In this document: piece after piece, positions 2,688-55,222 of the stretch
Layout: each line of letters begins with the position of its first letter
Numbering within the stretch: the stretch's first letter is position 1
NCBI RefSeq assembly: GCF_004363235.1
Contig: NZ_SNYW01000006.1
Coordinates: forward strand, 434,001 to 498,000
DNA: 64,000 bases
Direction of reading: 5' to 3'
Source of the DNA: Dongia mobilis
Lineage (GTDB): Bacteria; Pseudomonadota; Alphaproteobacteria; Dongiales; Dongiaceae
Notes under the pieces: model-generated
What the model saw: only the letters and a program-made list of their open reading frames with translations
The model's database searches: none
Told to the model about the DNA's origin: nothing
Made by a program: the position numbers and the translations under genes

Positions 2688-4052
2688 TCAATAGGCGAAC
2701 TCGGAAAAGACTGGATCCACCGAGCCGTTCCATGTGCCGTGATAGAGATCGAGCTTCCGCTCGGCCGGCGTCTTTCCGCTATCGGCGATGAGCTGCAGGG
2801 GATTGAGGAAGCCTGACTCGTCCATGCCGCCGAGGTCGGTGGCGCCGCGGCGCTGCAAGCCGGCGCGGGCGATGGCTAGGGCCTCGAGCGCCAGATCGCG
2901 CACCGTTCGGTTCTTGAAGGGCGTCTTGAGCGCTGCTTTGGGCACCTCGCGGCGCAACTGCTCGTGATCGCCGATCGACCAACCCTTGACCAGATCCCAG
3001 GCGGCATCGAGCGCGACATCGTCATAGAGCAGGCCCACCCAGAAGGCGGGGAGGGCGCAAAGCCGTTCCCACGGGCCTCCATCGGCGCCACGCATTTCCA
3101 GGAAGCGCTTCAGGCGCACTTCGGGAAATGCGGTGGTCAGGTGGTCCGCCCAGTCGCCGGTGGTCGGGATCTCGCCCGGAAGTGCCGGCAGCTTGCCGTC
3201 CAGGAAGGCGCGGAAGGATTGCCCCGAGGCATCGACATAGGTGCCGTCGCGGTAGACGAAATACATCGGCACGTCGAGCATGTAATCGACATAGCGCTCG
3301 AACCCCATGCCATCCTCGAAGACGAAGGGCAGGATGCCGCAGCGATCGGGATCGGTGTCGGTCCAGATATGGCTTCTGTAGGAGAGATAGCCGTTGGGTT
3401 TCCCCTCGGTGAAGGGCGAATCGGCGAAGAGCGCCGTGGCAATCGGTTGCAGCGCCAGGCTGACGCGGAACTTCTTCACCATGTCGGCTTCGCTGGAAAA
3501 ATCGAGATTGGTCTGCACCGTGCAGGTGCGGATCATCATGTCGATGCCAAGCTTGCCGCGCTTGGGCATATAGTCGCGCATGATCTGGTAGCGGCCCTTG
3601 GGCATCCAGGGCGTCTCGGCGCGCGACCATTTCGGGTTGAAGCCCATGCCGAGCACGCCGATGCCGAGTTCGTCCGAGACCTGCTTCACCTGCCTGAGAT
3701 GCGTCCCCACCTCGCGGCAGGTCTCGTGGATGTTGCGCAAGGGCGCGCCGGACAGTTCGAACTGCCCACCGGGCTCCAGCGTGATGCTTTCGCCGTTCAT
3801 GGCAAGGGCGATGATGTTGCCGTTCTCCTCGATCGCCTCCCAGCCGAAGCGGGTCAGCCCCTTCAGGAGGGCGCCGATGCCGTTGGGCGCCTCATAGCTG
3901 ACCGGGCGCAAAGTCTGGCGGTCGAACACGAATTTCTCGTGCTCGGTGCCGATGCGCCAATCCGCCTTGGGCTTGTTGCCGGCTTCCAGATAGTCGACCA
4001 GTTGGCGCTTTGCCGTCACCGGTTCGCCGCGCGATTTCGGCGGTGCTGACAC
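2688..4052 (-). CDS. gshA: Glutamate--cysteine ligase (plant/alphaproteobacterial type)
   Basis: 454 residues. It catalyses ATP-dependent formation of gamma-glutamylcysteine, the first step of glutathione synthesis, in the cytoplasm. The N-terminal [11 protein letters not shown] motif (residues about 37-47) carries the catalytic metal-binding glutamates; [13 protein letters not shown] near residue 91 and a long C-terminal GCS2-type domain follow. Length and motifs fit the class found in alphaproteobacteria and plants rather than E. coli GshA. The likely start is a GTG at 4052 with GGAGA just upstream. It lies 15 bases after rsmE on the same strand, an arrangement conserved in many alphaproteobacteria. 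The grxC and Prx6 genes nearby use the glutathione made here. Confidence 0.95.
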
Positions 4053-4067
4053 GCTTCGTCTCCATAC

Positions 4068-4877
4068 TCAATCAGGCGCCGCGGGATCGGCCGGTTGACC
4101 GATTGGCACCAGCGGTGCTGGTGGCCTTTGGGCGCCGTCGCCCAGGATGCTTTGAAAGACGGCGAGTGCAGTCAGCGCTGCCGTGTCTGCGCGCAGGATT
4201 CGAGGTCCCAGGCCGACCGGGGTAACAAAGGGTAGATTTGAGATTTGGTCAAGCTCAGAGCGCGCAAACCCCCCTTCTGGTCCACATAGAATGGCCCACT
4301 GATCATAGGGGCTGTTAGAAAATGTTACAGAAGTCTTGAAGGCCGATAACGCTTCGGCGATCGGCAGGGCCGGCCCCGCTTCGGCGCAGAGAATGAGACG
4401 CCTTTGCGGCGACCAGCGTTGCAACAGCTCGGCGAGGGATTGCGGCGGGTGAATCGCCGGGAGGGTCAGGCGCTCCGTCTGTTCCGCCGCCTCGATCGCA
4501 TTGGCGGCAAGCCGGTCCAGATTGAGCCGCGTGCTGGTCGTGTGCCTGGTGATGACCGGCTGGAAGGCGGCGACGCCCAGTTCGGTCGCCTTCTCGATCA
4601 GGAAATCGGTGGCGTCCTTCTTGAGCGGGGCAAAACATAGCCAGATATCGGGCACGCCAGCCTGCGGACGGCGCAGCGCCTTGACCCGCAGGGCAGCGCC
4701 GCGCTTGCCGATCTTGGCGATCTCGGCCGTGAATTCGCCGTCGCGGCCGTTGAAGAGGACGACGGGGTCGCCCGGCTGGCGCCGCATGACATTGCGCAGG
4801 TAGTGCACGGCACGGTCGTCGGCCGGGACGTCGTTTCCGATGGCAAGGTCGACAGGTAGATAAAGGCGCGGGATCAT
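4068..4877 (-). CDS. rsmE: 16S rRNA (uracil-1498-N3)-methyltransferase RsmE
   Basis: 269 residues from an ATG at 4877 (MIPRLYLPVDLA). RsmE methylates U1498 of 16S rRNA. The N-terminal PUA-like domain contains HYLRNVMRRQPGD, and the SPOUT methyltransferase domain has the diagnostic ILCGPEGGFARSELD and the knot segment LGPRILRADTAALTAL near the C-terminus. The frame is open for 37 codons upstream of the chosen start, but RsmE proteins begin with the RLYL motif. It heads the minus-strand unit with gshA and is divergent from ubiA, 91 bases away. Confidence 0.94.
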   Translation of the reverse strand: MIPRLYLPVDLAIGNDVPADDRAVHYLRNVMRRQPGDPVVLFNGRDGEFTAEIAKIGKRGAALRVKALRRPQAGVPDIWLCFAPLKKDATDFLIEKATELGVAAFQPVITRHTTSTRLNLDRLAANAIEAAEQTERLTLPAIHPPQSLAELLQRWSPQRRLILCAEAGPALPIAEALSAFKTSVTFSNSPYDQWAILCGPEGGFARSELDQISNLPFVTPVGLGPRILRADTAALTALAVFQSILGDGAQRPPAPLVPIGQPADPAAPD

Positions 4878-4968
4878 GTTCTTGTCGGACGTTGTGGCTC
4901 TGACTATGGTCGCGGCCAGGAGAGTAGCGGCAGAACGCGGAATTGATAAGGCCGGGCAAAGAGGCGGT

Positions 4969-5880
4969 ATGACGGGTGCCAGCGACATCGCAACTGGGGA
5001 TTGGGTCGACCGCCGGGTGCCGGCGGCCCTGCGCCCCTATCTGCGCCTTGCCCGGGTCGACCGGCCGATCGGCACCTGGCTGCTGCTCTTTCCCGGCTGG
5101 TGGTCGATCGCCCTAGCCGCCCCGCCGGGGGTATGGCCCGACATCGAGGCACTCATCCTGTTCGCGATCGGCGCCCTGGTGATGCGCGGGGCCGGCTGCA
5201 CGGTCAACGACATCGCCGATCGAGATTTCGACGCGCGCGTGGCGCGCACGGCCAACCGTCCGCTCGCTTCCGGCGCTCTCTCGGTCAGGCAGGCGCTCGT
5301 CTTTCTGGTTCTGCAGCTTCTGGCGGGGCTTGCCATCCTTTTGCAATTTCCGCCATTCGCCATCGGCCTCGGCACCGCCTCGCTCGTCCTGGTCGCTGCC
5401 TATCCGTTCATGAAGCGGATCACCTGGTGGCCCCAGGCGTTTCTCGGCCTCACCTTTAACTGGGGCGCCCTGCTGGGCTGGGCGGCGGTGACCGGCGAGC
5501 TCGCCTGGGCGGCGGTCCTGCTTTATGTCGGCGGCATCTTCTGGACATTGTTCTACGACACGATCTATGCCCATCAGGACAAGACCGATGACATGCTGGT
5601 CGGCGTCAAATCGACGGCCCTGCGCCTGGGAGCCCAGACCAAGCCCTGGCTGGTCGGCTTCGCGGCGGCCGCGCTCGCCTTCTGGGCTTGCGCCCTCATT
5701 GCGGCAAGCAGCGGAATCATTGCCTTGGCGGGCCTCTTCGGGTGCGCTGCGCACCTCGCGTGGCAATGGCGCGATGTTGATCTCGACAACACCCAGGACT
5801 GCCTGCGCAAGTTCCGCAGCAACCGATTCATCGGCTGGATCCTGTTCGCGGGGATCGTGCTGGATCGCCTGCTCGCGTGA
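4969..5880 (+). CDS. ubiA: 4-hydroxybenzoate polyprenyltransferase
   Basis: 303 residues. An integral membrane prenyltransferase that attaches the polyprenyl tail to 4-hydroxybenzoate in ubiquinone synthesis. The first Asp-rich motif NDIADRDFDARVARTANRP is at about residues 80-98 and the second, YDTIYAHQDKTDD, is in the second half; multiple hydrophobic helices lie between. The start is the ATG at 4969, with GAGGCGG just upstream; upstream codons in the same frame overlap the divergent rsmE region. The stop overlaps the GTG of the next gene by 4 bases, so the two are translationally coupled. Confidence 0.94.
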   Translation: MTGASDIATGDWVDRRVPAALRPYLRLARVDRPIGTWLLLFPGWWSIALAAPPGVWPDIEALILFAIGALVMRGAGCTVNDIADRDFDARVARTANRPLASGALSVRQALVFLVLQLLAGLAILLQFPPFAIGLGTASLVLVAAYPFMKRITWWPQAFLGLTFNWGALLGWAAVTGELAWAAVLLYVGGIFWTLFYDTIYAHQDKTDDMLVGVKSTALRLGAQTKPWLVGFAAAALAFWACALIAASSGIIALAGLFGCAAHLAWQWRDVDLDNTQDCLRKFRSNRFIGWILFAGIVLDRLLA

Positions 5881-48027: not shown

Positions 48028-48062
48028 CGGCCGCCTCCCCATGGGCTTGATCCTGCCGGGTG

Positions 48063-48989
48063 TCATCCTGTTGCGACGCTGCGAGCCGACCGCACGGCGC
48101 GGGATGCCATTTCCTGGCCCTTCCGGGCAGACTGCAGGGCGCTGCGTCCGCTGGCAAGGCCGAGGGCGAAGCCCGCCACCATGGCATCGCCAGCCCCGGT
48201 CACGTCGAGGATGCGCCCCCTTCCCCGGGCAGGGATCGCCTGCTGCCGCCCGTCGGCGCCGGAGAGGAAGCAGCCGGCCTTGCCGAGCCCCACCAGCACC
48301 TGGTCGACGCCGCGCGCATGGAGCGCCTGCGCCGCCGCGGCGAGATCGCGCGCGCTTGCCACCGGCCGCCGGGTCAGGGCGGCCAATTCGTCGCGATTGG
48401 GGGTGAGGGCGGCGAGCGGCAGCCTTGCCTTCAGCACCGCGCCGAGGCGCGCCGCCTTCGGCACCGAAACCGGATCGATCACCAGCGGGCGCCCGGCATC
48501 CGCCGCGATCCGCGCCAGCGCTGTCAGGCAGGGGCCAGGCAGGTTGCAATCCGCCACCAGCAAATCGGCCGCCGCCAGCGTTTGCGCGTGACGCTCGATA
48601 TCGGCGGGCGTCAGCGCGTCCATCAGGCGCATGTCGCTGACCGCGATGACCAGCTCGCCCTTTGCGTCCAGGATCGCGTTGTAGCTGCCGGTGGCACCGC
48701 GCCGCCAGGCGAGGAGGGTGGTATCGATGCCGGAGGCCCGCGCCTCGCGCCGCAGCCGGTCGCCCATCGCATCATTGCCGACGATACTGAACAGCGCGAC
48801 ATCCGCCCCCGCCAGCGCCAGATTCTCGGCGATATTGCGGGCGACGCCGCCGGCGCTGGTGACATTGCTGCCGGGGTTCGAGGTTCGCGGCACCGCCTTG
48901 CCGGCGATGCGGCTCTTGATGTCCAGATTGGCGCCGCCCAATACGATGATTTTCGGCCCGGTGATTTTTGGCGCGATGATTTTCGGCAC
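48063..48989 (-). CDS. psuK: PfkB-family kinase, likely pseudouridine kinase
   Basis: 308 residues. PfkB fold: IIVLGGANLDIKSRIAGK, NPGSNVTSAGGVARNIAENL and the catalytic ILDVTGAGDAMVAGFALGLA. Phosphorylates pseudouridine for PsuG, as inferred from pairing. The first 18 residues (PKIIAPKITGPKIIVLG) contain three near copies of a Pro-Lys-Ile-Ile/Thr unit encoded by a short DNA repeat, so the true start may be internal. No pseudouridine transporter is adjacent, but an ABC exporter gene lies just upstream. Confidence 0.85.
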   Translation of the reverse strand: MPKIIAPKITGPKIIVLGGANLDIKSRIAGKAVPRTSNPGSNVTSAGGVARNIAENLALAGADVALFSIVGNDAMGDRLRREARASGIDTTLLAWRRGATGSYNAILDAKGELVIAVSDMRLMDALTPADIERHAQTLAAADLLVADCNLPGPCLTALARIAADAGRPLVIDPVSVPKAARLGAVLKARLPLAALTPNRDELAALTRRPVASARDLAAAAQALHARGVDQVLVGLGKAGCFLSGADGRQQAIPARGRGRILDVTGAGDAMVAGFALGLASGRSALQSARKGQEMASRAVRSARSVATG

Positions 48990-48998
48990 GGTGCTGGC

Positions 48999-50864
48999 CT
49001 ACTCCGCTGCGTCCGGCTCGGCGGCCCCGCTGGCAGCGGCCCCATTGCCTGTGACCGGGTCGGGCCGTGCCGGCTGGTCGAACTGCAATTCGGCGAGGCG
49101 CGCGTACAATCCGCCCTGGCGAATGAGCTCGGCATGGCTGCCGATGGCGACGATGCGCCCCTTGTCCATGACCACGATGCGGTCGGCCTTCAGCACGGTG
49201 GCGAGGCGATGCGCGATGACGATGGTGGTGCGCCCCTGCATGGCGCGGTCGAGCGCCGCCTGCACCATCTGTTCCGATTCCGCATCGAGCGCCGAGGTCG
49301 CCTCGTCGAGCAGCAGCAATGCGGGATCGCGCAGCACCGCGCGGGCAATGGCGATGCGCTGGCGCTGACCGCCGGAGAGGCGCACGCCGCGCTCGCCGAG
49401 ATGGCTCGCCAGGCCCTGCGGCAGGCGATCGAGGAATTCGGCGGCATGGGCGGCGCTGGCGGCGGCGCGCACCTCCGCCTCGTTCGCCTCCGGCCGGCCA
49501 TAGCGGATGTTGTCGGCGGCCGTGGTCGAGAAGATCACCGGGTCCTGCGGCACCAGCCCCATGGCGCCGCGCAGGGCTTCCGGCGCGAAGCTGCGGATGT
49601 CGCTGCCGTCCAGCGTGATGCCGCCCTCATCCGGGTCGTAGAAGCGCATCAAGAGCTGGATCACCGTGGTCTTGCCGGCACCGGACGGCCCCACCAGGGC
49701 GATCGTCTCGCCGGGCTGGATCTCCAGGCAGAAATCGTCGAGGGCCAGCGCCTCGGGTCGCGACGGATAGCGGAAGGTGACATGGTCGAATTTGATCCGC
49801 CCCGCCACCTTGGCCGGCAGCTGCTGCGGGTGCGCGGGTGCCGCTATCACCGGGCGCGTGTTGAGAAGCTCCAGGATGCGCTCCATCGCCCCCGCCGCGC
49901 GCTGCAGATCGCCCACCACCTCGGTGATGGCGCCCAGCGACCCCGCCGCCAGGATCGCATAGAAGACGAAGGCCGACAGCTGCCCGGCCGAGATGGCGCC
50001 GGTCAGCACGTCCCTGCCGCCGATCCATAGCACGATCGAGATGGCGCCGAAGATCAGCAGGATGACGATGCCGGTCAGGAACGCCCGCGCCTTCACCCGC
50101 TGGCGCGCCGCGTCGAAGGCCTCCTCGACCCGCGCGCCGAAGCGCGCGCGTTCGTGCACTTCATGGGCGAAGGCCTGCACGGTGCGGATGCCATAGAGGC
50201 TCTCGGCCGCATCGGCCGAGACTTCGGCGATCTTGTCCTGCGACAGGCGCGACAATTTGCGCACCTTGCGGCCATAGACGATGATCGGCGCCACCACGAA
50301 GGGGATCACCAGGAAGACAAGGCCGGTCAGCTTCGGGCTGGTGATGAACAGCATGATGGTCGCCCCCACCAACATGATCGCGTTCCTGAGCGCGATCGAG
50401 GCGGAGGAGCCGACCACCGTCTGCAGCAAGGTCGTGTCGGTGGTAAGGCGCGATATCACCTCGCCGGTGCGCGTCACCTCGAAAAATCCGGGCGACAGGC
50501 TGACGATATGGTCAAAGACGGCCTTCCGGATATCGGCCACCACGCGCTCGCCCACCCAGGTCACCAAATAGAATCGGGTATAGGTGGCGGCGGCCAGCAG
50601 CACGGTGACGCCGAACAGGCCCAGCACCGCCTGGTCCAGGATCGCGGGGTCGCCCAGGCCGAAGCCGTTATCGATCAGGTAGCGCATGCCGCTGCCGAGC
50701 GCCAGCACGGTGCCGGCGGTGATGGCAAGGGCCACGGTGCCGGCGGCGATCTGCCAGCGATAGGGTTTGACGAAGCGGATGAGGTCGAAGAGGTGCCGGT
50801 ACTGGCGCGAAACCGGCCGGTCGGGCTGATTGCCCCGCGTCATGTCGGCCGGCATCCGCGCCAT
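48999..50864 (-). CDS. ABC transporter, permease-ATPase fusion (MsbA/ABCB type)
   Basis: 621 residues: six-helix transmembrane domain (about 30-330) then the ATPase. Walker A is VGPSGAGKTTVIQLLMRFYD, signature RLSGGQRQRIAIARAVLRDP, Walker B LLLLDEATSALDAESEQMVQ and H-loop IVIAHRLATV. This is the half-transporter exporter class. Lipid or peptide export is possible; the substrate is unknown. The C-terminal 20 residues are acidic and Ala/Pro-rich. It lies 9 bases after cyaY in transcription order and 9 before psuK. Confidence 0.93.
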   Translation of the reverse strand: MARMPADMTRGNQPDRPVSRQYRHLFDLIRFVKPYRWQIAAGTVALAITAGTVLALGSGMRYLIDNGFGLGDPAILDQAVLGLFGVTVLLAAATYTRFYLVTWVGERVVADIRKAVFDHIVSLSPGFFEVTRTGEVISRLTTDTTLLQTVVGSSASIALRNAIMLVGATIMLFITSPKLTGLVFLVIPFVVAPIIVYGRKVRKLSRLSQDKIAEVSADAAESLYGIRTVQAFAHEVHERARFGARVEEAFDAARQRVKARAFLTGIVILLIFGAISIVLWIGGRDVLTGAISAGQLSAFVFYAILAAGSLGAITEVVGDLQRAAGAMERILELLNTRPVIAAPAHPQQLPAKVAGRIKFDHVTFRYPSRPEALALDDFCLEIQPGETIALVGPSGAGKTTVIQLLMRFYDPDEGGITLDGSDIRSFAPEALRGAMGLVPQDPVIFSTTAADNIRYGRPEANEAEVRAAASAAHAAEFLDRLPQGLASHLGERGVRLSGGQRQRIAIARAVLRDPALLLLDEATSALDAESEQMVQAALDRAMQGRTTIVIAHRLATVLKADRIVVMDKGRIVAIGSHAELIRQGGLYARLAELQFDQPARPDPVTGNGAAASGAAEPDAAE

Positions 50865-50872
50865 TCCGGTCC

Positions 50873-51226
50873 TCAGCCCCGGCTGCCGGGTGCAACGGGG
50901 GCGAGTTCCACCGCCGCGCCGGCGATGGCGGAAAACTCGGCCGAGAGCACGGCATGCAGATCCGCCCCGCCCCGCGTCGGCTGCCAGCGGCCGCTTGCCG
51001 GATCGAAGGCATAATGCGCCGCACCGCTTTTCGGGCTGGACAGCCAGATCTCCTTATTGGCGGCATGCTTGTTGATGACATAGGTGCCGCCGTCCTCAAG
51101 CTCGATAGTCAGCACCGAGCCCTGGAGGTCGATATCCTCGATCCCGTCGGCCACGCCATCCTCGATCTCGGCCATCAGGGCCTTCAGCGTGGCATCGGCC
51201 AGTTTGTCGAAGGTGGCTTCATCCAT
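50873..51226 (-). CDS. cyaY: Iron donor protein CyaY (frataxin)
   Basis: 117 residues from the ATG at 51226. The frataxin fold: an acidic first helix (DEATFDKLADATLKALMAEI), then GSVLTIELEDGGTYVINKHA and the iron-sulfur-binding ridge KEIWLSSPKSGAAHYAF. It modulates iron delivery and cysteine desulfurase in Fe-S assembly. The acidic patch is less dense than in E. coli CyaY. An upstream in-frame ATG at 51289 adds 21 residues not seen in the family. Confidence 0.9.
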   Translation of the reverse strand: MDEATFDKLADATLKALMAEIEDGVADGIEDIDLQGSVLTIELEDGGTYVINKHAANKEIWLSSPKSGAAHYAFDPASGRWQPTRGGADLHAVLSAEFSAIAGAAVELAPVAPGSRG

Positions 51227-51427
51227 GGGGCGCTCCGGCATTTCGGCAGGCCGCCCCGGGGTCGGGCGCGCGGCCTTGATCGGCATCACATTAATGCCCT
51301 GACATACAAGGCTTAAGAATGCCTCGCAACGGGGAAAGCCCGGCGGCCGTTAACCATTTTGTCGCGGGCTTGGCGATCCCTTATCCGCTTTCACCGAGTC
51401 CGATCCGCGGGGACTTTCATGTGTCAC

Positions 51428-51460
51428 TTGCCTTTCCATTCTTACAACATTATTGTTGTA
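51428..51460 (+). promoter_or_regulatory. Promoter with a perfect palindrome before the four-gene island
   Basis: TTGCCT (51428-51433) and TATTGT (51451-51456) are 17 bases apart. TACAACA (51443-51449) and TGTTGTA (51454-51460) form a perfect 7+4+7 inverted repeat over the -10. The expected transcription start falls at the ATG at 51463, so the first mRNA may be leaderless. The XRE-HTH protein two genes down is the likely operator binder. Confidence 0.6.
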
Positions 51461-51462
51461 TT

Positions 51463-51942
51463 ATGATTCCTCCTCTAATTCATTTTACCGGCTCTCCTTG
51501 GCCGCTTTTGCCTCCGGGCATACACGAAGCAAGCCTCGCTGAGGTCGCGGCGGCATTCGCGACTAATCCCTGGAGGCGAAGCCTCTTTGATGGGTTGGTT
51601 GATGCGTCAGGCAGACTTTTGCGCGCTGGATGTCTCAGGATTTATCTGGACGGCAGTTACGTGTCCGGGAAGCCTAAGCCAGGCGATTTCGATGCTTGCT
51701 GGGACCCAGTTGGGGTTGATCGATCGAAGCTCGATGATGTGTTTCTGGATTTTCGAAACGGACGTGCTGCGCAGAAAGAAAAGTTTAAGGGAGAGTTCTT
51801 TCCGTCTTCGATGACGTGTGCTGACGTCGGGCGAGCATTTGTCGAGTTTTTTCAGCAGGATCGTTATTCAGGGAAACAGAAGGGAGTCATTTCTATTCCG
51901 CTTTCGCACGATCCGCTCCTATTCGGGAAAGTAGAATCATGA
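51463..51942 (+). CDS. Minimal-nucleotidyltransferase-signature protein (DUF6932-like)
   Basis: 159 residues. Position 62-77 reads LDGSYVSGKPKPGDFD, that is GS-x9-DxD, the active-site pattern of minimal nucleotidyltransferases (G64 S65, D75, D77). The remainder looks compact and helical. The frame is open upstream, but MIPPLIHFTG is the likely start because the promoter palindrome ends two bases before the ATG. No ribosome site is seen. The stop overlaps the next gene's ATG by 4 bases. Base and codon use are A/T-richer than the neighbours, suggesting transfer. DUF6932 similarity is from memory and should be checked. Confidence 0.75.
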   Translation: MIPPLIHFTGSPWPLLPPGIHEASLAEVAAAFATNPWRRSLFDGLVDASGRLLRAGCLRIYLDGSYVSGKPKPGDFDACWDPVGVDRSKLDDVFLDFRNGRAAQKEKFKGEFFPSSMTCADVGRAFVEFFQQDRYSGKQKGVISIPLSHDPLLFGKVES

Positions 51943-53216
51943 TCTACAGTGACAAGCAGTACAGCGTATCAAGCGCGCAGCTTGCAAAGTTGCAGCAGGC
52001 GCTTGCTGCCGCGAAGGAGCACACTTCAGATCAGTCTTGGCTCAAAGACGCGGAAATTAATGCGCTCAAAAGCCAGATTGCGGATATTGAGGCTGAGCTT
52101 CTGGAATATGAGTTGCTTAAGTCTGGCGAAGTTGCCTTCTCGAAGACATATGATCTTGAGGAGTTGCCAAGAGTATTGGTGCAGGCGCGGATCGCGGCTG
52201 GCATGAGTCAAACGGACCTCGCCGAGAAACTTAACATGAAGCCGCAACAAGTGCAGCGGTACGAATCGACCGACTACATGGGAGCGAGCCTTTCGCGATT
52301 GATCGAAGTATCGCGCGCACTTGGGGTAACAGCATCGGGAAGTTTTGAAGGTCCAAGGCATGCAAGCAATTCGGTATTCACGTGGGGTGACTTTCACAAT
52401 GTCGCTTGGGGGCAATTTCCATACAAGGAAATGATAAAGCGCAGATGGTTTGATGTGCCGCGTGGTGCGAACCCAATTGAGAAAGTGAAAGAGTATTTTT
52501 TTAGTGCAGCCGGACCGCAATTTGCGACGGCATTGCATAGGAAGAAAGTTCATAGCGGAAACGTGCCCAATGAGTATGCGCTGCTAGCTTGGCAGGCACG
52601 TATACTGGAACGTGCACGTGCTAAAGTCGAAGCAGGCAAGATTGGCGCGTTTGAGTTTGATGATAGGTGGTTGAAAGACCTGGTCCATCTAACCCAAAGA
52701 AAAGATGGCCCGGCGCAAGCGAGAGAACTTCTGGCAGCGAAAGGTATCATCCTCGTCGTCGAACGACACCTGCCTGGATCATATCTGGACGGTGCCGCAA
52801 TGCTTGCTGAAGGGGGTCTGCCAGTCATTGGCCTAACGCTGCGCTACGACCGATTGGATAATTTTTGGTTCGTGCTGATGCACGAACTGGGGCATGTCTT
52901 CCTCCATCTTTTCGATGGGTTCCGTTTTGACTTCTTCGATGAGGAGAGCGCCAGCGATAACGATGTGATCGAAGCAGAGGCCGACAGGTTTGCTCTCAAT
53001 GCGTTGATATCGGAAGAATTGTGGGATCGGTGCCTATCCCGGTTTGCGCTATCAGAAGAAGCAGTAGAGATTGACGCACAAACTATTGGAATCGACCCCT
53101 GCATCATTGCCGGTCGTATCCGCAAAGAGCGCGGGAACTACACCATCCTAAACGAACTAGTCGGTCAAGGCCAAGTGCGGTCGCAACTTGATGAGGCGAG
53201 CGATGATCTTGACTAA
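51939..53216 (+). CDS. XRE helix-turn-helix/ImmA-IrrE metallopeptidase protein
   Basis: 425 residues. Residues 1-65 form a probable coiled coil (alternating Leu/Ala/Glu). An XRE-type HTH covers about 76-130: ARIAAGMSQTDLAEKLNMK, then PQQVQRYESTDYMG. A linker leads to an ImmA/IrrE-type zinc peptidase at about 265-360 with HELGH at 315-319 and a second metal ligand in EAEADRFALNAL (345-356). Such fusions cleave or bind repressors and often control mobile or toxin-antitoxin operons. It probably autoregulates through the palindrome at 51443-51460. A/T-rich like the whole island. It overlaps its upstream neighbour by 4 and its downstream neighbour by 14 bases. Confidence 0.9.
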   Translation: MIYSDKQYSVSSAQLAKLQQALAAAKEHTSDQSWLKDAEINALKSQIADIEAELLEYELLKSGEVAFSKTYDLEELPRVLVQARIAAGMSQTDLAEKLNMKPQQVQRYESTDYMGASLSRLIEVSRALGVTASGSFEGPRHASNSVFTWGDFHNVAWGQFPYKEMIKRRWFDVPRGANPIEKVKEYFFSAAGPQFATALHRKKVHSGNVPNEYALLAWQARILERARAKVEAGKIGAFEFDDRWLKDLVHLTQRKDGPAQARELLAAKGIILVVERHLPGSYLDGAAMLAEGGLPVIGLTLRYDRLDNFWFVLMHELGHVFLHLFDGFRFDFFDEESASDNDVIEAEADRFALNALISEELWDRCLSRFALSEEAVEIDAQTIGIDPCIIAGRIRKERGNYTILNELVGQGQVRSQLDEASDDLD

Positions 53217-54288
53217 GGACATGTACGTGCCCGCATTGCGCTGGCGCCAAGGTGAGTATCAAGCGCTGGCGAGTCTTCCGGCTGCAGCCAAGGATCGTGT
53301 CTTGCCCTATGTTATCATTCCAGAGGTCGAGTTCGATTTTGAGTTGTGGCAACCGAAGAAAACTGTTCAGGAACACGTTCACCCATTTGCGGCTCGCTTC
53401 AATGCCAAATGGGGGCGTCGGCCAGCGCTGGTCGGCGTGCATCCGAGCATTTCAGAGAAACCGATGGGTGACGGTCGGGACACCTTCACTTATGTATTTG
53501 AAGCCTTGCGTGCCTTTCAGGCTACTGCAATACCGGTTATCCCGCTTGATGCATCTGTTGCCATAACAGCCTCCGTTCGAACAATCATTGCTGTCGATGG
53601 ACAGGGGGCAGCTATAGCAGTTCGAATTGTCGATCTTATGAAACCGGATGCGCGGGCGCGCCTTGAAGCCCTTGCGAAATCGCTTGGGGTGGGGCTCGAC
53701 GATATAGATTTGATTGTTGATTTCGGGGCGGCAAATTTTGAGCCATACGATGCGTTCGCTGGGGCATTTATTTCTGCCATGCGCCGACTTGGTGACGTAA
53801 GCGCCTTCCGCAATTTCGTAGTAGTTGGCACTGCCATCCCTGAGAGCTTTAAAGACGTCGCGAAGGGAATGGATAAACTAACGCGGCATGATTGGCTATT
53901 TTATCAGACGCTTATCAGCCGACTGCCTGTTGGCATGCGACGTCCAAACTATGGAGACTACACGATTGTCCATCCGGAGTTTGCTCCTGTAGACATGCGC
54001 AAGGTCAAGTCGGCCGGCAAGTTGGTTTACACGACGTCGGAGGTTTGGGAAATCCGAAAAGGAGGGGCGTTTCGTGACAACCCGGAGCAGATGCATGATC
54101 ATTGCGCTTCGATTTTGGCCTCCGGCAAATTCAGCGGCGCGAGTTTTTCAAGCGGCGACGATTACATAGCCAAATGTGCCATTCGAGCGAAAGGACCAAG
54201 CAATCAGCCTTGGTGGAAGTTTGTCACTATTAACCACCACATCACTCATGTGCTGAATGACCTCGCCATCTTTGCCGACGGGTCATGA
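53203..54288 (+). CDS. Beta-family (PF14350-type) protein
   Basis: 361 residues. The N-terminal YVPALRWRQGEYQALASL and the order of strands (VLPYVIIPEVEFDF, then PVIPLDASVAIT and LIVDFGAANFEPYDAF) fit the beta-protein family also called sce7725, known mainly from accessory islands. The fold looks like an alternating alpha/beta barrel. Its enzymatic role is not established. The start is chosen at the ATG at 53203 (GAGG upstream); an ATG at 53191 and TTG at 53188 are alternatives. The 3' end overlaps the convergent sce7726-like gene by 47 bases, which links the two genes. Confidence 0.8.
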   Translation: MILTKDMYVPALRWRQGEYQALASLPAAAKDRVLPYVIIPEVEFDFELWQPKKTVQEHVHPFAARFNAKWGRRPALVGVHPSISEKPMGDGRDTFTYVFEALRAFQATAIPVIPLDASVAITASVRTIIAVDGQGAAIAVRIVDLMKPDARARLEALAKSLGVGLDDIDLIVDFGAANFEPYDAFAGAFISAMRRLGDVSAFRNFVVVGTAIPESFKDVAKGMDKLTRHDWLFYQTLISRLPVGMRRPNYGDYTIVHPEFAPVDMRKVKSAGKLVYTTSEVWEIRKGGAFRDNPEQMHDHCASILASGKFSGASFSSGDDYIAKCAIRAKGPSNQPWWKFVTINHHITHVLNDLAIFADGS

Positions 54289-54838
54289 CGCGTCGAATAG
54301 TGCCTGTGAGTTCGCGTAGAGTCATGTTTTCGCAAAGCAACTCGTAAAGCTGTCTTCTCGGCTTCCGTAGATCCTTTGCTCTATATCCAGCCAGGCTAAG
54401 CAGGTCGATAACTTCATCACGCCAAAGTAGATGCGCCAGCATGATCGGATCTAAGTCGGGGTTAGTGGCCGAATCTCGTACTACACAAAAGTTGATCGCA
54501 CCTCTTGGACCTTGCTCGGCGGCAATAACGCCGCTCCAGTTAGGTGCGCTAGCCAAAATGCTCGCTACATGCTTTGGTGCTGCAACGAAAGTGAGCTTTT
54601 CAAGTGTCTGGCGATAGATGTTGATCTGGGTCTCCAGTCGCTCGAGGGTATCGATTGCACTCTTTATTTCGTAACCGTGAATGCATCCATTAATGACTGC
54701 CACATCGATACGACTCTTAGCGTGCGCTAGTCCAAGTTCGTCGATAACAAGTGCGTCAGGGTGAGTTTTGAAGCGCCGCAGGCGCTTGGCATGCAGTGCG
54801 AGACGAATATCTGAGTCTCTTGTTCCGATCCCAATCAT
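54242..54838 (-). CDS. sce7726-like PD-(D/E)XK nuclease-fold protein
   Basis: 198 residues. Residues 45-59 read DVAVINGCIHGYEIK, giving Asp-45 and Glu57-Ile-Lys59, the PD-(D/E)XK catalytic core; an earlier Glu34 (VIDELG) could be the helix acid. The next stretch, DTLERLETQINIYRQTLEKL, is an amphipathic helix as in restriction-type folds. The sequence strongly resembles sce7726-family proteins, which are commonly found beside beta/sce7725 genes. The other three genes run on the opposite strand and converge on it. Function is inferred as a nuclease or nucleic-acid sensor in defence; not tested. Confidence 0.75.
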   Translation of the reverse strand: MIGIGTRDSDIRLALHAKRLRRFKTHPDALVIDELGLAHAKSRIDVAVINGCIHGYEIKSAIDTLERLETQINIYRQTLEKLTFVAAPKHVASILASAPNWSGVIAAEQGPRGAINFCVVRDSATNPDLDPIMLAHLLWRDEVIDLLSLAGYRAKDLRKPRRQLYELLCENMTLRELTGTIRRVMTRRQRWRGHSAHE

Positions 54839-55222
54839 TGTCTACGCGTTTGGCCCTTCTAACGTTCCTCATCCAGAGTTTCTGCGTTGGATTGACACTC
54901 GAATTTGCACCCAATGTAAATGACGAAACGCGTCAGTCGCGCCCGCTCGGGCAGCGTCTGGACTCGTAGTGTTCTTAGCGGCGCTGGAGGTAGTGATCCT
55001 GGAGGCCAAGAGGTGTGGATTTCTGAGGCCTCTGAAGATTGATCCAAATATGGTTAATTTTTGCTTAAACGAGGGGAGGTTGCCAAGAAATGAGCGGCGG
55101 CGTCCCCAGCCCCCGGACCCTTGCCATCCCGGCCCCCCTTCGTTATAAACCGGCCCCAATTGGCCCAAGGGGGGAACCCTCTTCCGGGTCGTTTCCCATT
55201 GGAGCCGTTAGGAGTTCGCGCC
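54839..55222. other. Gap between the island and rpmE
   Basis: No convincing gene. It contains the rpmE promoter at 55121-55149. A further TTGACA-N17-TGTAAA on the plus strand (54892-54920) looks promoter-like but leads to no recognisable gene. The base composition moves from A/T-richer on the left to G/C-rich on the right, so the island's right border probably lies about 54.9-55.1 kb. No tRNA or direct repeat was recognised at either edge. Confidence 0.55.
55121..55149 (+). promoter_or_regulatory. rpmE promoter
   Basis: TTGCCA (55121-55126), exact 17-base spacer and TATAAA (55144-55149). The leader is about 67 bases. Confidence 0.6.

Follow-up and report, generated by a model that had tools for sequence, protein, structure and literature searches.

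A four-gene DUF6932-containing insertion between cyaY and rpmE of Dongia mobilis, a candidate anti-phage module on the plan of PD-lambda-2 and gop-beta-cII

The four-gene block and its families

We analysed a window of 64,000 nucleotides (nt) from Dongia mobilis (Alphaproteobacteria, Dongiaceae; NCBI RefSeq assembly GCF_004363235.1, contig NZ_SNYW01000006.1, positions 434,001 to 498,000 of the forward strand), in which an A/T-richer insert of four genes, here called A to D, lies between the core genes cyaY and rpmE in the order A>B>C><D, with gene D convergent (Table 1). All open reading frames (ORFs) of the initial annotation were found at their place, with a G+C content of about 0.50-0.55 in the block versus mostly 0.6-0.74 in the flanks (500-nt windows), where it also dips to 0.53-0.57 in places. 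The annotated overlaps of 4 nt (A/B) and 14 nt (B/C) are present, and C and D overlap by 47 nt tail to tail.

Table 1. Features of the block (positions in the window; nt, nucleotides; aa, amino acids)
Feature	Position	Strand	Description
Gene A	51463..51942	+	159 aa, DUF6932, nucleotidyltransferase-like (GS-x9-DxD)
Gene B	51939..53216	+	425 aa, N-terminal HTH half (~1-140), M78/ImmA-IrrE-like half (~150-425)
Gene C	53203..54288	+	361 aa, Beta_protein, predicted TIM-barrel fold
Gene D	54242..54838	-	198 aa, sce7726 family, phage P4 cII relative, convergent with C
Palindromic operator-like site TTACAACATTATTGTTGTAT	51442..51461		start 21 nt upstream of the A start codon
Insert between cyaY and rpmE, approximate largest extent	51236..55119		from flank similarity to five same-genus relatives

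Family matches agree with the parts that had been named from the letters. Gene A belongs to DUF6932 (PF22014, E 2.3e-33), gene B contains a helix-turn-helix (HTH) domain (HTH_3, 1e-10, residues 82-132) and Peptidase_M78 (6e-7), gene C is a Beta_protein (PF14350, 7.3e-79) and gene D a member of the sce7726 family (NF033832, 3.1e-44) that also matches the PADLOC cII model (1.9e-29) and cII of phage P4 (26.9% identity, E 2e-14, tblastn). The initial annotation had pictured a separate regulator and protease; here the HTH and M78 domains form one chain in B. The letters of the GS-x9-DxD, HELGH and ExK motifs are present as annotated, and their residues are conserved: G64, S65, D75 and D77 of A are kept in 53/53 A proteins of the set and its relatives, H315, H319 and E345 of B in 55/55 and E316 in 54/55, and D45, E57 and K59 of D, which we take to be a PD-(D/E)XK nuclease motif, in 49/49.

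The block is an insertion at the cyaY-rpmE site, as judged from genome comparison, because cyaY and rpmE are neighbours without genes A to D in five same-genus relatives. rpmE was located in 5/6 of these relatives, with cyaY and rpmE adjacent in 5/5, and none of the four genes was found in the fetched cyaY-rpmE stretch of the five. Flank similarity to them stops at 51167-51235 and restarts at 55120-55220; no att-like direct repeats of 8-14 nt were found across the insert ends. One of these relatives, G006, has a diverged, convergent beta-cII (C-D) pair at another place, locus L143 (4777-6366), with 27% identity in C; A and B are missing there, and two related short ORFs (3728-4024 and 4188-4493) lie ahead of the pair. 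Elsewhere in the window, a 656-aa ORF lies antisense to an ABC transporter gene (48060-50030); it is most likely spurious, a product of the high G+C.

Conservation of the set and of its upstream palindrome

The gene-order search proposed with the initial annotation bore out the set. When genome contigs were scanned with four aligned B proteins as query, 53 loci were obtained, in 44 of which A>B>C><D occurs in the same order and on the same strands; the full set is also carried by three plasmids, typed as conjugative, and by the window, making 48 loci in all. The hidden Markov models of A to D were seeded by the window and the three plasmid loci, which match by construction; the D of locus L006 was not a seed. 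Chance neighbourhood was rejected, as 44/53 loci keep one gene order. The nine loci without the full set have B only (L050), A and B (L051 and L054), A, B and a weak C (L055), A, B and C with A split (L052), a C fragment and no D (L042), B, C and D on a contig that ends near B, where A would be (L056), or short B matches (L059 and L060). Near-duplicates are present among the A proteins, of which 50 collapse to 39. Of the 48 loci, 37 have an A/B overlap of 4 nt, four one of 14 nt and three another value, with unresolved starts in four; between C and D the overlap is positive in 47 loci and measures 47 nt in 35 of them.

As named in the records, the hosts are Alpha- and Gammaproteobacteria and metagenome-assembled genomes (MAGs) or isolates of Nitrospirales, Bryobacterales, Chloroflexi, Rhodothermales and Frankia, and B identity is 53 to 78% in full-set loci outside Alphaproteobacteria. 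Horizontal transfer is the natural reading of this spread, with the caution that some loci are MAG contigs. Correlation between the distance matrices of A, C, D and each half of B gave r of 0.85-0.94 (45 loci; L038, L045 and L058 were excluded for split ORFs), as expected if the genes are inherited together. dN/dS was 0.03-0.16 in 12/16 gene comparisons with four relatives, values that are rough at a dS of 1.2-4.6; the other four were saturated. Among 398 sampled genomes of the phylum, the A-B-C-D set occurs in two, the window's own and G586, DUF6932 in 17 (18 places), beta in 13 (16 places) and sce7726 over the cut-off in 14. For the surroundings, 166 neighbour proteins were chosen from 49 loci and 146 scanned (the scan left out L014, L015, L018, L031, L042, L053 and one protein of L040). 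PADLOC gave 105 families with a match at E <=1e-10, the best 25 of which each matched one or two of the 146 proteins, and Pfam detected phage integrase in four.

Directly upstream of the window palindrome TTACAACATTATTGTTGTAT lies the -35-like TTGCCT. The pattern TTACAACANNNNTGTTGTAA occurs with <=3 mismatches upstream of A in 49/53 loci with A, and two loci with a split A ORF (L045 and L052) have it at the same place, giving 51/53 in total; L039 and L043 lack it. It begins 21-23 nt upstream of an ATG in 46 of the 49 loci, and only one other such site was found in about 840 kb. In fixed 93-nt windows the palindrome was detected in 36/48 real versus 11/9600 shuffled sequences; this lower count arises because the start rule chose false starts, so 51/53 is the better one. 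By eye, a -35-like TTGAC or TTGC stands just upstream of the palindrome in many loci.

Module exchange and relation to known systems

The A protein (P0001) matched no MNT, NTP-transferase or AbiEii Pfam model at E up to 1. It matches PADLOC PDC-M63A weakly (2.1e-7, 29.1 bits) and JetB at 0.00086; its AlphaFold2 model has a predicted local distance difference test score (pLDDT) of 93, and the weak structural matches listed are mostly nucleotidyltransferases, including MNT antitoxins and AadA. Strict GS-x9-DxD is present in 8/18 places of the wider DUF6932 sample. For B, PADLOC PD-Lambda-2_B matches at 8.8e-81, only over residues 153-419, and the relatives of solved structure found by sequence are HTH proteins only, over residues 73-137; the same approach gave no convincing relative for A, C or D. 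C matches PD-Lambda-2_C at 9e-43 (residues 5-354) and beta at 5.9e-7. Its model (pLDDT 86) has a TIM-barrel fold (best Z 12.7, root-mean-square deviation (rmsd) 3.4, 219 aligned), which says nothing about function.

Judged by gene arrangement, the modules of the block are exchangeable. DUF6932 precedes HTH-only proteins in L141, L142 and, with A truncated, L140, and also comes before longer HTH-M78 fusions, with a protease half diverged from that of B, in L139, L157, L161 and L168 (in L168 the M78 domain is under Pfam's cut-off); the motif GS-x9-DxD is also present in A of L139, L141 and L142. A partner like the N-terminal half of B directly follows DUF6932 in 5/18 places, and in L155 the DUF6932 gene is followed by a PDC-M63B gene (1.5e-154). 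The C-terminal half of B is also found after HigB-like genes, as in L126, where B and beta come after a HigB-like gene (5.3e-5, under Pfam's cut-off), with no cII within 10 kb. Among the 16 beta places, a convergent D adjoins in 11 and an HExxH ORF lies directly upstream in 11, with both in seven; the protease is a separate small protein in five. D over the cut-off adjoins beta in 11/14 genomes with D, and in the other three a different protein follows.

Several loci are of interest in their own right. In L141 (~3692-4587) and L142 (~3507-4393), an HTH-only protein comes after DUF6932 and neither an M78 domain nor beta is present; this is possibly a minimal toxin-antitoxin pair. L177, L178, L180, L183 and L184 encode a small stand-alone HExxH protein right before beta, with a convergent cII in 4/5, a beta-based layout without HTH or known toxin. 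In L189, L191 and L192, the gene after sce7726 runs in the same direction and its product, which begins with MYYPYFRGKQ or a similar stretch, is perhaps of the sce7725 family; homology of the partner of other sce7726 genes with beta was not supported (profile comparison probability 0.4%, with three sequences on one side). The Acinetobacter plasmid pNDM-AP_882 (L091, ~3294-5201) carries DUF6932 and B as a pair, beta being present as a fragment only; the pair adjoins an IS30 transposase gene, upstream of blaNDM-1.

At <=3 mismatches, TTACAACANNNNTGTTGTAA was not found in L139-L142, in L091 or in the PD-lambda-2-like loci, except for one site in L133. Palindromes with ACAAC/GTTGT half-sites were noted by eye or at four mismatches before A in L139 and L142 and before B in L092, and L141 has no clear palindrome. 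The N-terminal half of B is likely the putative palindrome binder, since L139, L142 and L092 share that half.

The HEPN-MNT and AbiE toxin-antitoxin systems likewise pair a small protein of nucleotidyltransferase type, like A of the block, with one other gene, although the partner of A here is an HTH-protease. Among PADLOC candidates, PDC-M63 has an A model that matches gene A weakly, but its partner is a different 309-aa protein, it has no HTH-protease, beta or cII, and PDC-M63B had no match among the four block proteins at E up to 1.

Likeness to PD-lambda-2 is closer. As published, PD-lambda-2 is an abortive-infection defence in which B alone is toxic, A rescues, and C is needed for defence and not for neutralisation (Vassallo et al. 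2022, PMC9519451). Its PADLOC B and C models match the C-terminal half of gene B and gene C, and both share the order of a toxin-like gene, an HTH-peptidase and a beta relative. Unlike PD-lambda-2, the block begins with DUF6932 in place of a HigB-like gene, the N-terminal half of its B falls outside the model match, and it adds a convergent cII relative, where the PD-lambda-2-like L126 has none in 10 kb. PD-Lambda-2_A had no match in the A protein at E up to 1, PDLC03981 had none genome-wide, and a strict PD-lambda-2 was rejected for want of a HigB-like A.

The gop-beta-cII system of satellite phage P4 is reported to protect against lambda and P1, and gop to be toxic when beta is missing (Rousset et al. 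2022, PMC9122126). The block shares with it beta and cII relatives that are convergent as in P4, where the order is gop, beta and then a convergent cII annotated as sce7726 family; in phage Rac-SA53, beta and cII are convergent too. However, the block has the A-B pair in place of gop, the 3' ends in P4 do not overlap in contrast to the 47 nt in the block, and identity is low (C 19%, D 27%). Scanned with the gop model, the four block proteins gave no match at E up to 1; Gop of P4 itself matches PDLC03001. A similar mechanistic proposal comes from Makarova et al. 2009 for Xre-COG2856 fusions, which would cut the antitoxin of a neighbouring toxin in a three-component system (PMC2701414). The operons treated there likewise have a fused HTH-protease beside a small toxin-like gene, but their partners are mostly RelE or PIN toxins, whereas the block has a nucleotidyltransferase-like protein with beta and cII.

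The block had initially been called undescribed, which appears to hold for the whole and not for the parts. No description of the exact four-gene set, with DUF6932 replacing HigB, was found in the open-licence literature searched, while the PADLOC models of PD-Lambda-2 and P4 cII recognise the C-terminal half of B, C and D. Wholly undescribed parts were rejected, as B, C and D have strong PADLOC matches among the components of known systems, and A has a weak one in a candidate system. By its families and order, the block is apparently an undescribed variant of the PD-lambda-2/gop-beta-cII kind.

Proposed working and alternative readings

Taken together, the block is probably a horizontally moving candidate anti-phage module that is laid out like PD-lambda-2 and P4 gop-beta-cII and would act by abortive infection as a toxin-antitoxin unit; this agrees well with the defence or toxin-antitoxin-like role guessed initially. 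We read it as toxin-antitoxin and abortive infection because of the published accounts of PD-lambda-2, gop-beta-cII and Xre-COG2856. We infer each step of the following working. The HTH domain of B would bind the palindrome before A and repress the A-B-C operon. In the uninfected cell A and B would form an inert pair, with A, its nucleotidyltransferase motif intact, contacting the N-terminal half of B. C together with D may then respond to infection and trigger the metalloprotease of B, which would cut itself or another target, so that the A-B pair separates, the operon is derepressed and growth halts before phage release.

Several results weigh against this reading. The structural match of A is weak, with a best Foldseek E of 0.32 (none at <=0.001) and a best structural Z of 5.1 (rmsd 4.5, 95 aligned; 1/409 chains at Z >=5), and for this reason the nucleotidyltransferase call for A leans on the motif. 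A PD-Lambda-2_B match alone is not proof of a PD-lambda-2 locus because the model matches loci without beta: beta was detected in the fetched stretch of only 2/9 PD-Lambda-2_B places under 1e-100, one of them a fragment. The pair in L091 has no operator pattern though it is otherwise similar to A-B. PDC-M63AB, whose A model weakly matches gene A, gave no defence in one native host (PMC12409345). Finally, no consistent defence island was found among the 146 scanned neighbour proteins, in a survey that had no null model.

Two assignments of the toxin can be considered. The toxin may be A, which as a nucleotidyltransferase would modify tRNA or some other target in the manner of AbiEii or MenT, with B as antitoxin and repressor whose protease frees A on infection. 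We hold this tentatively; the toxin-first order fits it, as do the GS-x9-DxD motif in 53/53 A proteins and in L139, L141 and L142, and the DUF6932 genes before short HTH-only proteins in L141 and L142, where they are the only candidate toxin. The structural matches of A to MNT antitoxins speak against it, as does PD-lambda-2 itself, where toxicity was reported for B on its own and neutralisation for A (PMC9519451). The same published result argues for B as the toxin, which A would neutralise, perhaps by attaching nucleotides as MNT antitoxins do to HEPN toxins; one entry among the structural matches is titled mono-AMPylated HEPN with MNT. This assignment is more doubtful, as A differs from the HigB-like A of PD-lambda-2, so that its role may not transfer, and the L141 and L142 pairs are without protease.

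Selfish addiction to mobile elements, with no part in defence, would account for the three conjugative plasmids and for the patchy occurrence of DUF6932 and beta in the 398 genomes. It is unlikely, given that phage protection is reported for the two closest systems, that the window copy sits between core genes and that the beta relative of PD-lambda-2 is needed for defence and not for neutralisation (PMC9519451). A stress or DNA-damage cassette, in which the M78 domain inactivates a repressor in the style of ImmR/ImmA, appears very unlikely: HTH and M78 are fused in B, the operator-like site is conserved and ImmA is reported to be required for proteolytic inactivation of ImmR (PMC2701414), but the unit has no stress gene, and the relatives of beta and cII work in defence systems.

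Beyond the anti-phage module proposed for the window, we suggest with some reserve that beta and cII may form a common core responding to infection, often next to an M78 metalloprotease and combined with exchangeable fronts (gop, HigB-HigA, DUF6932-HTH or a small protease alone), that DUF6932-HTH may be a new toxin-antitoxin family, and that PD-lambda-2, gop-beta-cII and the block may form one modular class. PD-lambda-2 and gop-beta-cII, reported separately, appear in the block as overlapping parts of one layout, and tools that require HigB-like sequence in the first gene would presumably fail to call the block PD-lambda-2. DUF6932, a name absent from the open-licence literature searched, thereby gains a candidate role, and the conserved operator-like site and intact motifs make the toxin, the trigger and the protease target testable in a small defined block.

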